Shown here piece after piece: positions 50,397 to 58,300 of a stretch of 64,000 bases of DNA. Every line of letters begins with the position of its first letter. The first letter of the stretch is position 1. This stretch comes from Plasmodiophora brassicae (lineage: Eukaryota; Endomyxa; Phytomyxea; Plasmodiophorida; Plasmodiophoridae). The position numbers were made by a program, and so were the translations under genes. The stretch spans positions 744,001-808,000 of the forward strand of contig JASFAU010000013.1 in NCBI GenBank assembly GCA_039704465.1, in the 5' to 3' direction. Under the pieces are notes generated by a model. It saw only the letters and a list, made by a program, of their open reading frames with translations. It had not been told where the DNA came from and did not search any database.

Positions 50397-52385
50397 ATGG
50401 CGGCGCGTGCTGTCGCTCGAGCGTTCGCTCGCGTCGGTCGACGACCCCCGGGTCTGCGGTACATGGACGCCGCCACGATCATGGAGCGCCCGAGCGTCCC
50501 GCAGGCCATGCGCCTGCTGCAGGACGGGTGCGACCCGGCGCACGGCTGGGCCGTCTTCCAGCGCGTGCTCTGCTCCCAGCACGTGCTCGACCCGGCCTTC
50601 TTCGAGCAGATGCTCCAGTTCTGCCAGCGATACGACCCGTCCAGGGTCGTCGACGTCATGAACGTGGCCGTATCACGCGGTGGCCTCTCCCCCCAGGCCA
50701 TCGACACGCTGTTCTCCGCCTTCCTCGTCGCTTCCCACAAAGCGAAACCTCCACCCGTTGCGTACGCGTTCGAGCTCTACTCGAAACACGACGTTCTTCA
50801 TACGTCCACGACAGCACTGAACGGATTGGTCAGCCTCTGCCGGGTCGCGAACGACGCCTCGTCCGCGTTCCCGCTTCTGGACGACGCCCTGAAGCGCAAC
50901 CTGACGATCGGCCCGGATTTGTTCGCGTCGTTCGCGTTGTGCTGCGCCGAATCAGGGTCGGCGCAAGGGGCCGACGTTGCAGAGAAGATGCTGGACGATG
51001 ATGTCTCGACGCAGATCAGGTTCCCTCGTCAGCACGCGCCGTTCGGGCACCTGGTCCAGGTCCTGATCGCGCACCATCGCCTGGAATCGGCCGTCCGCGT
51101 CTTGGACGTGATGGAAACCCTGACGATCCCTAACCGGGATCGTCAGGCTGCTGTCCAGAAGGTGCTCGTGGCCCTTGCCAAGGCCACGCACGTGCCTCTG
51201 ATGATGCTCGTGTTCCGGGCGATGAAGGTCGGTGCCGTGCCGGGCGTGCTCAGCGCCATGATCACCGCTGCCGGGCGGGCGTTCGACGGCACCGCTGTGG
51301 CGACGCTTCACCGATACGCCAGCGAAACCGGAATGCTCGGCAGCGACCCGATCGTCACCAGGCTGATGTCGTCGTACGAACTCTGTATGAACCTGGACGC
51401 CTGCGACGAGCTGTTCAGAGGCGCCGCGAGCGCGCCCGCCTACACGGCCATGATTGCAGCGTACAGCAACCATGGCCTGCTGGACAAGGCCATAGCCACG
51501 TTCGGCGCGATGCAGGAGGCGCGACTGCGTCCGACGAAGGAGACGCTGCTGGCGTTGCTGTCCGGGTGCAGGAAGGTGGCCGATCTGGAACGCGCCCAGG
51601 CCATCCTGGCTGATTTCGCCAGGACGTGGCAGATCCATCCCGGCCACGTGCACGCCAATTGCATGGTCGACCTGTACGCCCGGGTCGATGACCTGGACGC
51701 CGCCGAGCGATTCGTTGCCGGCCAAGCAACGTTCAACGACAGTGTATCGTGCTGGGCGCGCGTTCTTCGCGCGTGCCGCAAGAAACACGACGTTGAACGA
51801 GCGGAGCGCGTCTTTGCTCGCATTCTCGGTATCCCATGCGCGTCGCCAGAGGCAAGGGCACCGTCGTACGCGTTAATGGCGAGCGTATACGCGCGTGCTC
51901 GACGTCTATCCGACCTGTCGCGGTTGCGGGCCGAGATGACGAGCATGCGAGTCCCTGTTCCCGACAGCAGGCCGACGGTGACGTCGCTGCTGCTGGATGA
52001 TCGTCGCATCGATTTCCTATCCGGCGACGCCGAACAGCCACCCGGTGCCGTCGAGCAGCACTCGATGATGATAGACAACCTGCTGAGCGACGGCTACACA
52101 GTGGACACGTCGGTGGTCTGGGCCGATGCCGACGCATCGTCCACTGAGGACCGGGCGAGAGCATCGGTGCTGATGCATGGCGAGAAACTGGCGGTCGCCT
52201 ACGCCCTGATGCGTCCTGGCCCGGCATCGGGCCCCATTCGTCTGACGACGCGCGCGCCGCTGTGCCTGGACTGCCACGATGCCCTCAGGCGGGTGTCGTC
52301 GCTGTACGACCGCCCGATCTTCGTCTTCGAGCACGATAAGCGTCCGCATCGGTTCATCGGCGGCCAGTGCTCATGTGGAGACTAA
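50397..52385 (+). CDS. PPR protein with DYW-type cytidine deaminase domain
   Basis: A single exon of 662 codons from ATG 50397. The first residues (MAARAVARAFARVGRR) look like a mitochondrial presequence. Pentatricopeptide-type helical repeats follow (for example PAYTAMIAAYSNHGLLDKAI, ANCMVDLYARVDDLDAAERF, SCWARVLRACRKKHDVERAE), then E-like motifs. The C-terminus is a DYW domain: zinc/catalytic motif HGEKLAVAYAL (HxE), SGPIRLTTRAPLCLDCHDAL (CxxCH), and the end HRFIGGQCSCGD. The protein stops just before the usual final Tyr-Trp. DYW proteins are C-to-U RNA editing factors of plant organelles, also known from a few protists. The intact HxE and CxxC suggest an active deaminase acting on mitochondrial transcripts. 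It is almost intron-free, unlike its neighbours. Confidence 0.9.
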   Translation: MAARAVARAFARVGRRPPGLRYMDAATIMERPSVPQAMRLLQDGCDPAHGWAVFQRVLCSQHVLDPAFFEQMLQFCQRYDPSRVVDVMNVAVSRGGLSPQAIDTLFSAFLVASHKAKPPPVAYAFELYSKHDVLHTSTTALNGLVSLCRVANDASSAFPLLDDALKRNLTIGPDLFASFALCCAESGSAQGADVAEKMLDDDVSTQIRFPRQHAPFGHLVQVLIAHHRLESAVRVLDVMETLTIPNRDRQAAVQKVLVALAKATHVPLMMLVFRAMKVGAVPGVLSAMITAAGRAFDGTAVATLHRYASETGMLGSDPIVTRLMSSYELCMNLDACDELFRGAASAPAYTAMIAAYSNHGLLDKAIATFGAMQEARLRPTKETLLALLSGCRKVADLERAQAILADFARTWQIHPGHVHANCMVDLYARVDDLDAAERFVAGQATFNDSVSCWARVLRACRKKHDVERAERVFARILGIPCASPEARAPSYALMASVYARARRLSDLSRLRAEMTSMRVPVPDSRPTVTSLLLDDRRIDFLSGDAEQPPGAVEQHSMMIDNLLSDGYTVDTSVVWADADASSTEDRARASVLMHGEKLAVAYALMRPGPASGPIRLTTRAPLCLDCHDALRRVSSLYDRPIFVFEHDKRPHRFIGGQCSCGD

Positions 52386-52396
52386 ACATCGTCCTT

Positions 52397-55300
52397 TTAT
52401 GCAGGCGGTTTGTGCCGGCGCCTGTGGGCGGCGCGTTTCCGTCTGTGCCGCGGCAGGACGACCGGGAACGGCCACTGGACAGCGGCCGGGTCCGCCTTCG
52501 TGGCGTCTTCGTGCGCTGCCCCAGGCCTCGCGATCGGGTTGACCGGGCATGGGTCCTGACCCATCTGCTTGAAGATGTCGATTGGGTGCTGCTGGATGGC
52601 GTCCTCCATCGCCTTGTACTCGTCGTCGTCGACGTGATGCTGCTCGGTCTTGCTGAACCTGCTCAACGACATGATCCCTGACAGGTGCTCTGTCGTTGTC
52701 GTCTGCCCGCCATCCTTGTCAGCGCCTGCGCTGCCCTCGCCAGACATCGACCGCATCACGGATCGTTTGGCATCGTCGAAATGCGTCATGTAGACGTGCA
52801 GGCGGTCTCGCGTCTCCACGATGCTCTTCATCTCCTGTTCGTAGCGTTGAAGTTTCAGCAGCAGTTCGTCGTCGTTCTCCATTAGCCGTTGCTCCTCGGC
52901 CATCAGTCCCGCCTCGTCCTGGACGATCTTGGCCAGCGCGCGTATTTCCGCGTCCGACATCATCGACAGATCCGTCTGTGTCAGCGCTCCCAGGACTGTC
53001 GACGTGTGCGGGCTCTTGTTGTTCACCAGCATCATCATCTGTCGAACGAGGTCCCGCCTGCGCCCTTGCCGCTCGACGACGTCGACGCGCACCTGGGATG
53101 CCTTGCTGAGCTTGATCAGCGAGTTGCCATGCTCGACGATCCCCGGTAGGGTCGCCGGCGGCCTGGGTGACGTCCCGCTAACGCCCTCGTATACGGCCGG
53201 ATGCCCTAATGTCGTCTCTTGGTTCACAGCTTGACGATCCTCGGCGCTCCAGTTCGCGGACGCTGTCAGCGACGAAGCGCGCTGAGCGCTCCGTTCGAAG
53301 GCGTCCAGATCAGACATGGCTGTACGGATCCAGTGGCGTTGCCCCTCGACCCATTCCGCCATCATCGCCCGCGTCTCCAGCCTGACCACCTCCTGTGCTC
53401 GTTCGAGGGCGTCGGCCCTCGCGACAGTCGTTAGGACAGTTCGCCACCTGGCGGACGTCATCATCGGCTCGTGATGACGAGGAGGTACACGTTCCGGGGA
53501 GAACGGAGTCGGCTGCGAAGGCGACACCGTGACGCGATGCGACGCGACCCATTCCTGCCACGCTTCCCTCTCCTCGCGAAGACGACACTCGACGAGGTGC
53601 TGTCGTGCCGACTGTTCGGCGGCTCGCAGCTCCCCGACCATCCGCTGGGATCGTCGCAGGCTTTCCATTCGCTGGCGTTCCTCTTCCGCCATCCGCGCTT
53701 GCCGCTCCTGTACCCTTGCCGTCACCTTCCGCAGTGCTTCTCGACGCTCGCGGCGAACTAAGAACGATGCCAAAGCCGCGCGCGCTGCGTCGCCGACGAC
53801 GTACAGCGGCTCCAGGAGCGTGCTGGCGACCACATCTCCCTTGAAAACGCTGAGGAACGTGTCCACATCGCTGGGCGTAGCCCTCCACCCGCACCGGGCG
53901 CCGAGTAGCACGGCGGCCTCAACAGGTGTAAGCTTTTGCGGCGTGCCACGCACTTCTTCCGCACTGGGGCCTGCAGCCTCGACTGCGTACTGCAGGCGCA
54001 GCTTCGCGGCATCGTACGTCGACATGCGGTGCAGCGACTGCCCGAGTGCGGTCTGCCGCCACGGCGGTATCGTCCACCGATTCAGACGGACGCGCTCGAC
54101 GGCGTCCAGGAACTCGGTGACGTCGCAGCCGGTTGTCAGGCGCACGACGTCGCTGGGCGTCAACGTGGACATGCAGCGCCCATCGATAACCTTGACGACC
54201 AAGGACTCGAACGCGCCGTCCGCGCCGCGATCGCCTCGCATGACGTGTCCGGTGGCCGTGTGACGAACGATGCAATCCGGGTGGGCGCGCGCAACGACGC
54301 TGATCTCATCGGCGGCGATCGCCACGAAATCGTGCGAAGCGAGCTCGACGACGGCGTCGATCGCCGGTATCGACATGGACACGTCGACGTTCAATGCGGG
54401 TAGTACCCGTTTCGAGATGTGGACCCGCGATGCTGGCCATGGCGGCGCGACACCAACGAACCGAATGTCCTGGAGCGCGTACGCGAACTGGCTGACGTCT
54501 TTGTACAAGGCGGGATCCAGTGGCGTCCCCGGTGCGTATTTCGGCACAGGCGCGGGCGTGTGCAGGCACTGCCACGTGGGGTACGCAGACGGCGCGTTGG
54601 TCAACGCCGGCGCGGACAGGTTTCTGTCGGTCGGGCGCATCAGCCACTGGACGAGGTGGTCCTTGGTGATCCGGAAGTCGCTGTCGGCGCTCTGGGCAAT
54701 GTACAGCGCGATGTGCTGCATGAGGTCGACGGGAACGACAACGTGTACAGCGACGGCAGGCGCTGGGGCCACCGTTGCCAGCGCACGCTCGAGGTCGGCG
54801 AGTCGGCTGTCATGTGACACCGTCACGATGACTACCGTAGCCGTCTTCGGCGTATCGATCAACGATAACGCGTACTGCAGGGCGGGGACTGCCCTCGCCA
54901 GACGACGATCGACCAGGACGGCGCCAACCCTGTCTGGTGTGTCATGATGCGCATCGGCGCCAATCGACGGCACCCATCGCTTTAAGTGCCCGTCGGACGC
55001 TTCGTGGACGATGCCAGCAGGGAAGGCCTTCCCCGAGTGGGCGCCTAGGTCAGATTGCTGTTCGTCGAGGTGACCGGCCAAGTCGATGATGACATGGGAT
55101 CCGGATCGCGCCAGGGAGTTTACAACAGCGCCGGGCTTGTTCAGGCGCAGGTCCACTGTTCTGATCGCCGTCAGGAGCGATTTCGTCGCCGCAGACGGTG
55201 CGGGACGCGCGCGCTCAATCACCGTGCCGCTGGTTCGGAACAGCTGGTCGGCGACCGGCGCAGGCGACGTGCAATGCATGCCGGCCAGCGGCAGAATATG

Positions 55301-58300
55301 CGATAGCAACCGCTCGTGCATGTCGCTATGCGTCGGGCGGTCGTCAGCGATCTCATGCGCGGCGAAAATCGCCGTCCCGAATGCTATATGGGCCTCGCGG
55401 AATTTCCACTGGGCAGGTTCCGCGGGCGTCCACCCGTCCTGGCCGAGCGCGTAATCCCGCCCGTGCATCATTTGCATGAGGCGGGGCAGGGCGTCGTAGA
55501 TCCAGGCGTGCGCGTCGGCGACCAGGGCGGGGCAGTCGTCGGGTCGGCGCGGGTCGGCGAGCGCCATCCGCACCCGACCGAGTGCGCAGTCGGGGGCGAA
55601 CGCGTTGAAGTAGACGACGATCCAGTCGGCGAGTACGGCGCGAAGCTCGTCCGCGTACCAGGACGGCAAGGCGAGGATGACTGCGGCACGTTTCCCGCTT
55701 TGGTGCCACAGCGCGCATCGGCGCGCGCCCCGATCCAGCTGTGTGTGGACGGCGGCCAGCGACCGGAGGAACTCGGGGCGGTTGTAGTGAAGCTTCTCCA
55801 TCCAGGCGGTGTCGTCGGCGTGCTGCCAGGACGCCAACGATGACACGACGTGGAGCGCCAGGGGAACGCGCCTGGGGTCCCCGGGCGTCCAGGAAGGCGC
55901 CGGCCCGGGCACCGTGCACCGCGCCGTGTCGAGCACGACTCGGTCGACGTCCTCGACGCAGACGTCATCGATCTTCGCCCCACGAAGTCGAAGAAGCGTC
56001 CGGCCGCTGCACACGACGATGGCGAATCGCTCGGGGAACGCGGTGTCGTCGTCCGTCAGCACGACGGCGTTCACGAGGCCAGGCCTTGCGACGCGTTCGG
56101 ACCCGACCGGTACGACGAGAACGCGCAGCGCGGGCCGCGACAGGACCGCCTGGGACGCAACCAGTTGCAGGGACGTCGTCGCCGGCGAATTCGTGAGCAG
56201 GGCGCCGTCGATCGGCCTCGTCGTCATGAATTCCGCCCGCAGCAGGCCGATGTCGACGGCGCGGGCGTCGCCCGGGAACCAGGCCGCCCGGCTCGACGAG
56301 GCGCACAGCGCGAGCAGCTCGTCGAATGCATCAAGGGCGGCCCGCAGTGCGGCCTGCAGGTCCGACTGCATCAGGTCCGGCGTGACGCGCCCGATGCCGG
56401 CCGTGACGACGCCCAGGGCCTCGCCCTGACGATGAGCGCGCAGCACGAACAGGTAATGCCGGACGAGGTCGCCGGCGTCGTTGCTGCTGCTGCTTGACCG
56501 CCATCGCTGCCAGTGCAGAGCGGCCCGTTCCAGGTCGGCGCGGCGCCCGGCGCGCAGCGTGCCCGATAGTCGCTTCAGCGCGTCCAGCGGCGATTCTTTC
56601 GGGCCGGACGGCGACGCCGTCCGGGACGCGTCGCCATCGTCGTCATCGTCGTCGTAGGTGATGTCGCCCATCAACGCGTCCTGTTCGGCCATGTGCTGGA
56701 TGCTGATCTGCGCCAGCAGCTCGATGGACTGCGCCTGGCGGGTCACGAGCACGTCATCCCGCACCCGGCTCAGCGGCTCCCGCACCAATTGGGCAACGTC
56801 GTCTGCCGCCCACGACGACACGTCATGCTTCCCAGGCGGGTCCTCCATCGTCGCAGGTCGTGCCCCAGGGCGGGCGCCTTCTGCAACCGTAACGGTACGC
56901 GCCGGTGCGACCGGGTCGTCGCGTGCCGAATCCGGCAGATCGACCGGGACGCAATTCCTGGACAGGAACTCGACGGCGTCGTGAGCAGAAGACGATGGTG
57001 ATGACGCCAGCGCCGGCAGCATGGGCGCCAGGTTGGCACAGGCGCGGGTGACGGATCGCAGCAGTGCGAGTGCGAACGAGTGCGGGCCGCCGAGCAGCAT
57101 CGGCGCGCACAGCAGTGCGAACGTGCGCCCGGACGAGGTCTGCCCCGGGGCCACCTCGACGGACGCCGACCCGGACAGCAGGTCGTACATCTGGAAGAAC
57201 GACTGGGCTGACGACCGCGCCGGCCCCTGCTTCAAGACGGCGTCCCAAACGGATCGGCACAGGCGCCGGGCGGACGCACCGCGGCACACGTTGTCCTCGA
57301 CGACCCGTGCGTAGATGACGTCGTCGCCCGATGCAGACGCCACCAGGGCCGGAATCGAATCGGGGCACGCGTTGACGGCGGCCTCCTCCTGGGGAACGGG
57401 CGCCTCGACGGTGAACGTGCCCTGGCCGGATTCCAACGCAGACAGGGACGCCAATCGGCATCGGGCCAGCCAGGAATCGCGGGCGACTCGCTGGAGAAGC
57501 GGCCGCTCGGTGTCGATCTCAAGGCGAATGTCGGTGGGGACCCTCTTCACGCATTCCACGTAGCGTTCGACGTGGGACGGCAAGGAGCCGTACACGAGTG
57601 CATCAATGGCCGGGTTGCCGATCGCCAGGCAGTGCAGCCGCATGGCGGTGCCCATCGGGGAACCGTCGGCATTGATGGCCTGCAGTGGAGGTGGGACCGC
57701 TTGGTCGTGCGGGCGAACGAACGCGATCTGCTGCAGGGCGGCGACGTAATCGCGCTGGGCGACGAACGCGTCGGCCAGGGCCAGCCGCTGCCGGTTGCCG
57801 TGTGGCATTGCGAACCGAAGCGAGATGTGCATCGGGATCGTCACGGGCCCTGGCAGCGCCAGATACCGACAACAACGATTGTCGGCAAGGACGAGATGCG
57901 GAGCAAGGCCCAACCGTACGTCGACGTCATCGTCGCCGTCGTCGGCAACAACGCCGATCGTGGCTCGGTGATGGCGACTGAGGAGTCTACCTTCGTCAGA
58001 GTCGAGGACAACCGACCCGACGTCCAGCCGGTGAAGCGGAAAACGTTGGCTGGACGTCGGGGACCATGCTGGCACCATCGACGTCTGAAAGTGCCGAGCG
58101 GTCCCCGCCGTGTTGCTCAACCAGGTGAGGACGTTGTCGCTGTCGTGGCCGACAAGCGATGCGAATCGCGCGCCGAGCGACGCGCGTGTCAGAATCGGGC
58201 ACGACTGGTCCAGCGAGACCGCCCGCCATACGCCGCGCTGCATGTGGTCGTCGTTCAACGTCCCCAGCTTGCGATTCGCCTGAAGGACGCGCCGTCGGGC

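Follow-up and report, generated by a model that had tools for sequence, protein, structure and literature searches.

A PPR-DYW protein of Plasmodiophora brassicae from a lineage-specific family, half catalytically broken, with a probable role in mitochondrial RNA maturation

A 64,000-nucleotide window of the Plasmodiophora brassicae genome (contig JASFAU010000013.1, positions 744,001 to 808,000) holds, at positions 50397–52385 of its plus strand, a single unbroken open reading frame (ORF) of 662 amino acids, from ATG to TAA, for a pentatricopeptide repeat (PPR) protein of the PLS type with a C-terminal DYW deaminase domain. On balance, we favour the reading that this nuclear-encoded and probably mitochondrial protein (hereafter the window copy) belongs to a lineage-specific family of 43 members that act mostly in RNA maturation other than editing, with few editing sites among them. 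Other RNA maturation is preferred for most copies because the family is large, half of its members are catalytically broken, the apparent need for editing is low and the mitochondrion is reported to carry 54 introns (PMC6823432). The same source gives five introns in the mitochondrial protein genes of Spongospora. On the sequences analysed here, C-to-U editing in P. brassicae is unproven.

The protein and its sites

The Pfam DYW_deaminase model matches the protein at 55.2 bits (cut-off 24) over residues 566–662 (52092–52382) and the Pfam PPR model at 47 bits (cut-off 25), which bears out the first-pass annotation of this DNA, made from its letters alone, as a DYW-type PPR protein in a protist. 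Judged by sequence and predicted structure together, the frame is not a chance ORF, because its best sequence match in the Protein Data Bank (PDB) is a synthetic PPR-DYW protein (E 1.4e-58), an AlphaFold model built on a 40-row alignment has a mean pLDDT of 89.6, and the top Foldseek match of that model is the same synthetic structure (TM 0.53/0.57 over 637 columns); PPR proteins are numerous among its best Foldseek matches. In the model, a solenoid of helical hairpins runs from residue 18 to about 516 (50448–51944), spanning a degenerate PPR tract and the E region, and is followed by the deaminase domain. Home-made motif models place one triplet in P-L-S order ahead of the E region, this last triplet (residues 346–449; 51432–51743) holding the top-scoring PPR motifs, and they find repeated P-L-S triplets in paralogues such as L026. 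The E motifs lie at the expected place and score 21.2 (residues 465–516; 51789–51944) and 25.7 bits, below the Pfam cut-off of 27.3 that 14 other family copies pass; the PG box, likewise at its expected place, is divergent.

The catalytic HxE(x)nCxxC site is complete (H594, E596, C623 and C626), as is the second, structural zinc site (H627, H651, C658 and C660). By the roles given in PMC7611903, H594-G595-E596 (52176–52184) supplies a ligand of the first zinc (Zn1) and the catalytic glutamate, and C623-L-D-C626-H627 (52263–52277) supplies the Zn1 cysteines and, through H627, a ligand of the second zinc (Zn2), for which H651 (52347–52349) and C658-S-C660 (52368–52376) are the remaining ligands. 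These columns are invariant in the 40-sequence alignment, in agreement with the earlier statement that HxE and CxxCH are intact. Also correct was the remark that the terminal Tyr-Trp is missing: the protein ends ...GGQCSCGD, its final codons, GAC TAA (52380–52385), place D662 last, and the codons beyond the stop encode no Tyr-Trp. The C-terminal Asp-Tyr-Trp is a naming signature that varies among true members, OTP86 for example ending in DSW, and its lack is not taken to decide membership here, given the score against the domain model and the two complete zinc sites. In Arabidopsis OTP86, the final Trp is stacked against a Zn2 ligand and the middle residue of the terminal motif faces solvent, and alanine at either Asp958 or Trp960 reduces activity (PMC7611903). 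Because the window copy keeps the terminal Asp but loses the Trp that is important in OTP86, its stability or activity is probably lowered, although total loss of activity does not follow.

A family of at least 43 DYW proteins

When the DYW model (cut-off 24 bits) was run against the whole genome, 18 contigs yielded at least 43 DYW domains with scores of 46 to 116 bits and none between 24 and 46 bits; these counts are lower bounds. The window copy ranks 39th of the 43 in DYW score. Open frames of at least 686 codons contain 41 of the domains, one of these frames having a stop in the last codons of the domain, and the other two lie in short frames (222 and 172). All 43 were extracted: 23 as full-length copies (the window copy and 22 further full frames), and the other 20 as C-terminal fragments some 700 bases long. 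Each copy is 31–50% identical to its best-scoring paralogue over the aligned stretch, the figure for the window copy being 38%, and one, L025, is 100% identical over 678 amino acids to a public P. brassicae record (P0038) named "DYW domain-containing protein". The first-pass annotation had called DYW proteins outside plants scattered, a description that does not suit a genome with 43 copies, as against 12 in Acrasis and 11 in Naegleria (PMC4202320).

In a tree inferred by maximum likelihood from the last 200 residues, the 43 P. brassicae rows lie to one side of a branch supported at 100/100, separated by a long stem from 29 other DYW proteins, which comprise land-plant sequences, unnamed records and, as the sole named protist, one Balamuthia mandrillaris sequence; the bootstrap was not fully settled and two rows are very long. 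The phylogeny of the domain, which the first-pass annotation had proposed, thus gives the window copy no placement suggestive of recent transfer: its sister is another P. brassicae copy, L050 (support 99/87). Since 41 of the 43 copies lie in long open frames and all share a single branch, the intronless state looks like a trait of the family, and a single ancient transfer of the family as a whole is possible. The Balamuthia protein (P0033) groups with the non-Plasmodiophora rows, most of them from land plants, and may represent a separate transfer.

The family is divided by its active sites. In one alignment, the catalytic His, Glu and both Cys are all kept in 22 of the 43 copies, and at least one is lost in the other 21, the catalytic glutamate in 13. 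The Zn2 set HHCC, by contrast, is kept in every copy (22 of 22 intact and 21 of 21 broken), including four that have lost the two adjacent Zn1 cysteines (L046, L059, L060 and L066). Poor Zn1 columns in the broken class are true by definition, but the untouched Zn2 site is not. Domains lacking the Zn2 motif would score lower and some may be missed, although many such copies are unlikely because the range from 24 to 46 bits is empty. At least 13 changes of catalytic state are needed on the family tree. We read this pattern, at the level of sequence, as repeated release of catalysis while selection kept the DYW fold, and since no copy has given up Zn2, the fold itself arguably serves some purpose other than catalysis. 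At the C-terminus, 35 of the 43 copies end in Trp, 21 of these in DYW, and the window copy is among the eight that do not.

The N-termini would suit mitochondrial import. The proposal that the window copy carries a likely mitochondrial presequence holds as far as charge goes, since residues 1–25 (50397–50471) are basic as expected, with a net charge of +5 and one acidic residue. Across the 23 full-length frames, the mean net charge over the first 25 residues is +4.3, compared with +0.15 for internal windows, and 22 of the 23 have at most one acidic residue there, counting from the first Met, which in L033, L035 and L043 lies far inside the frame and leaves the true start unsure; import is thus a prediction from composition. 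In the same 23 copies, position 5 of the P and S motifs holds N, S or T 105 times, against 41 for the next five residues, as expected of a putative RNA-reading tract.

Two observations concern individual loci. At C16:484838–487317, two DYW domains (L030 and L043) lie on the same strand about 2.2 kb apart, one intact and one broken (HGP for HSE). The deposited gene model PBRA_008312 (P0029) is about 100 residues shorter than the unbroken 1336-codon frame of L028, which suggests that the model holds false introns.

Need for C-to-U repair in mitochondrial genes

The first-pass annotation had linked the protein to C-to-U editing of mitochondrial transcripts, a link that is weakened by the mitochondrial DNA, in which the exons found for 12 genes give one good candidate site. 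The mitochondrial contig (C21; 114,743 bp) is intron-rich and uses TGA for Trp, and its exons were read with code 4; the comparison covers the exons found by similarity, with one misread cox1 exon excluded from the count. Nine nad genes (nad1, 2, 3, 4, 4L, 5, 6, 7 and 9) were each set against 43–80 bacterial sequences; for cox1, 11 of 119 homologues served as representatives. These ten genes comprise 2,931 codons and 912 columns conserved at 90% or more, at 84 of which P. brassicae departs from the consensus. At these columns, none of 328 nonsynonymous opportunities was a C-to-T repair, the lowest rate of the twelve substitution types (the others, 0.3–3.0%). The commonest repair type was A-to-G (13 of 438 opportunities: five Ile/Val, three Lys/Arg, two Ile/Met, two Ser/Gly and one Asn/Asp), a pattern that we read as drift in an AT-rich genome and not as editing. 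A search for an ADAR-type deaminase gave no Pfam A_deamin match, but control genomes gave none either, so absence is not shown.

In cob and cox3, P. brassicae differs at 63 of the 290 columns at which two PDB rows, which we take from their entry codes to be a plant and a mammal, agree with each other, and one of the 63 is C-to-T repairable. The good candidate lies in cob, where a CGG (Arg) codon precedes the WGGF motif and all five cytochrome b rows shown have Trp; a single C-to-U change at C21:46139 (L017:6139), on the minus strand and with U at −1, would restore it. Both cox2 and atp6 were viewed by eye. Structured RNAs likewise point to little need for repair, as far as their sequences tell: domain V hairpins of the introns contain 11 mismatches in 273 pairs, one of them A.C (of 24 hairpins listed, 21 were scored, one being too short and two out of register, with 7 and 9 mismatches), and 24 mitochondrial tRNAs contain seven mismatches in 532 pairs, again with one A.C. 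No clear GCGYG-for-GTGYG pattern was found within 18 bases of 29 exon ends, these ends being set by alignment. Four of the 29 are followed by GGGCGA, unlike the usual group II GTGYG (cox1 at C21:29336, 25740 and 16152, minus strand, and nad5 at C21:77774, plus strand). In the public P. brassicae Cox1 record (P0147), the exon at C21:23653–23757 is given in a frame that differs from the one matching other Cox1 proteins (PEVYILILPAFG...), and looks like an annotation error.

The strongest competitor of the favoured reading is that the window copy is, as in Naegleria and Acrasis, an ordinary site-specific C-to-U factor for one or two sites in the mitochondrion, with the active half of the family editing and the rest recruiting a partner in trans, as plant E+ proteins do with DYW2. 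We consider this somewhat unlikely, although the intact catalytic and zinc sites of the window copy, the strong cob candidate and the occurrence of C-to-U editing with DYW proteins in another rhizarian group (PMC11946409) all speak for it. C-to-T repairable positions are not in excess, however, and 22 intact copies face one good candidate site; moreover, in Acrasis, complementary DNA rejected four of six predicted sites (PMC4202320). Nor does the PPR code pick the cob site. When the codes of the 23 full-length copies were matched to 8,774 cytidines, a comparison also proposed by the first-pass annotation, the site was not singled out: where a copy has four or more informative motifs, at best 17% of cytidines outscore it, and the top placings of L033 and L035, for which no cytidine outscored it, are ties resting on one and three informative motifs. 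We regard the match as uninformative and the test as weak, with motif edges trimmed in home-made models.

We caution that several points count against a family engaged mostly in other RNA maturation. At 70% conservation, seven of 532 opportunities (1.3%) are C-to-T repairable, inside the range of the other types (0.9–6.2%); the strongest are in nad5 (Ser to Leu; Leu in 56 of 65 bacterial rows), nad4L (Ala to Val) and nad4 (Leu to Phe), and at all three 86% of bacterial rows have the restored residue. Since 22% of nonsynonymous T sites fall in the counted 90% columns, the zero count is compatible, at the 95% limit, with about 14 sites scattered at random over the ten genes; that limit is lower if editing mainly restores conserved residues. 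The systematic test covers 12 of the 32 protein genes listed in PMC6823432 and, beyond these, the tRNAs, the intron domain V hairpins and the bases beside exon ends, and against Escherichia coli alone, atp1 shows five C-to-T differences and atp6 one, all unweighted. The proposed part in intron maturation is drawn from the number of mitochondrial introns, only one P-L-S triplet scores well in the window copy, and the window copy could be inactive, by analogy with the need of OTP86 for its terminal Trp and Asp.

Proposed function and comparison with other systems

Two further explanations concern the window copy itself. It could be a decaying paralogue nearing pseudogene status, its C-terminus cut short beside a convergent neighbour. 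This neighbour, the next gene downstream (52397–58258, minus strand), has its stop 11 bp from that of the DYW gene and is itself an unbroken frame, of 1953 amino acids and with no Pfam match at E 0.001, in a neighbourhood that the first-pass annotation had called intron-rich. The missing Tyr-Trp and the low rank in DYW score would fit such decay, but 662 stop-free codons, the retained catalytic and zinc residues and the confident model do not; furthermore, the distance to its best-scoring paralogue means that the frame stayed open while much divergence built up, and we hold this explanation to be quite improbable. Recent transfer from the Brassica host, or retrocopying of another gene, is more improbable still and was rejected. 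The first-pass annotation had held that the missing introns and Tyr-Trp would fit transfer or retrocopying, and the gene does lack introns, its architecture is plant-like and its named matches outside Plasmodiophora are land plants, but it is at most 33% identical to any other protein among the matches listed, it sits beside a sister copy within the long-stemmed branch where no plant sequence tried nests with it, open frames are the rule across the family, and seven other copies also end without Trp.

Returning to the favoured reading, the PPR tract would bind a mitochondrial transcript and the C-terminal domain would dock on it. Copies with an intact site, the window copy included, would in principle be able to deaminate a cytidine that lies downstream of the sequence they bind, and the 22 of them may edit a small number of sites. 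Most of the family would nonetheless probably be sequence-specific RNA maturation factors, for splicing, end formation or stability, in an unusually intron-rich mitochondrial genome, with the broken copies either simply binding or serving an active partner as adaptors; on this view PPR-DYW editing proteins would be the ancestors of a whole family of mitochondrial RNA-binding factors.

The proteins resemble the PLS-class DYW editing factors of land plants (OTP86, PPR56/PPR65 and DYW1/DYW2) in P-L-S order, E motifs (below the Pfam cut-off in the window copy), HxE, CxxCH and the second zinc site, and the synthetic protein that best matches the window copy is of that class. Unlike the land-plant factors, they form a lineage-specific branch, half of them are catalytically broken with Zn2 kept, the window copy lacks Tyr-Trp, and the PG box reads GRTSLxLPDRxVxF-like where land plants have PGxSWIEVxGxxHxF. 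The broken copies can be set beside plant E+ PPR proteins, which have no catalytic site of their own and work with DYW1/DYW2-type partners (PMC7611903), whereas the P. brassicae copies keep the domain and its structural zinc and have lost the catalytic site alone.

Among protists, Acrasis kona has two confirmed C-to-U sites for its 12 DYW proteins and Naegleria gruberi, as cited in the same paper, two sites for 11; this excess of DYW proteins over editing sites has led to the suggestion of other roles (PMC4202320). P. brassicae is similar in having more DYW proteins than apparent sites and an AT-rich protist mitochondrion, and differs in having 43 copies, 21 of them with broken active sites, known from DNA alone. 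Like the paradinids (Ascetosporea), it is a rhizarian with PPR-DYW proteins; in two paradinid strains one and three such proteins were found, with 20–21 C-to-U sites (PMC11946409). A two-residue deletion in paradinid and fungal DYW proteins (PMC11946409) is not the rule in P. brassicae, where 28 of the 43 copies have a spacing of 28 from His to Cys, the window copy has 29 and one copy has 26. Searches of the literature for Plasmodiophora with DYW or pentatricopeptide, and for rhizarian DYW proteins, found no description of the P. brassicae family, most subscription papers being outside the search; the available text of PMC6823432 contains neither 'PPR' nor 'pentatricopeptide' and has 'RNA editing' once, in a reference, and PMC8298192 mentions two pentatricopeptide genes among expression changes.

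P. brassicae makes a strong case for studying the excess of DYW proteins over editing sites. With a mitochondrial contig, countable copies and a split into intact and broken members, it makes the puzzle testable, so that one can ask what RNA each copy serves and if the broken copies function. If the cob site proves true, C-to-U editing would extend to a second rhizarian lineage. More tentatively, the PPR-DYW family may have turned largely from C-to-U editing to mitochondrial RNA maturation, mainly of the 54 introns, with the DYW domain in half of its members a zinc-stapled, non-catalytic scaffold whose catalysis was lost many times independently; if so, it would be a naturally occurring example of editing enzymes that became, as a family, pseudo-enzymes.
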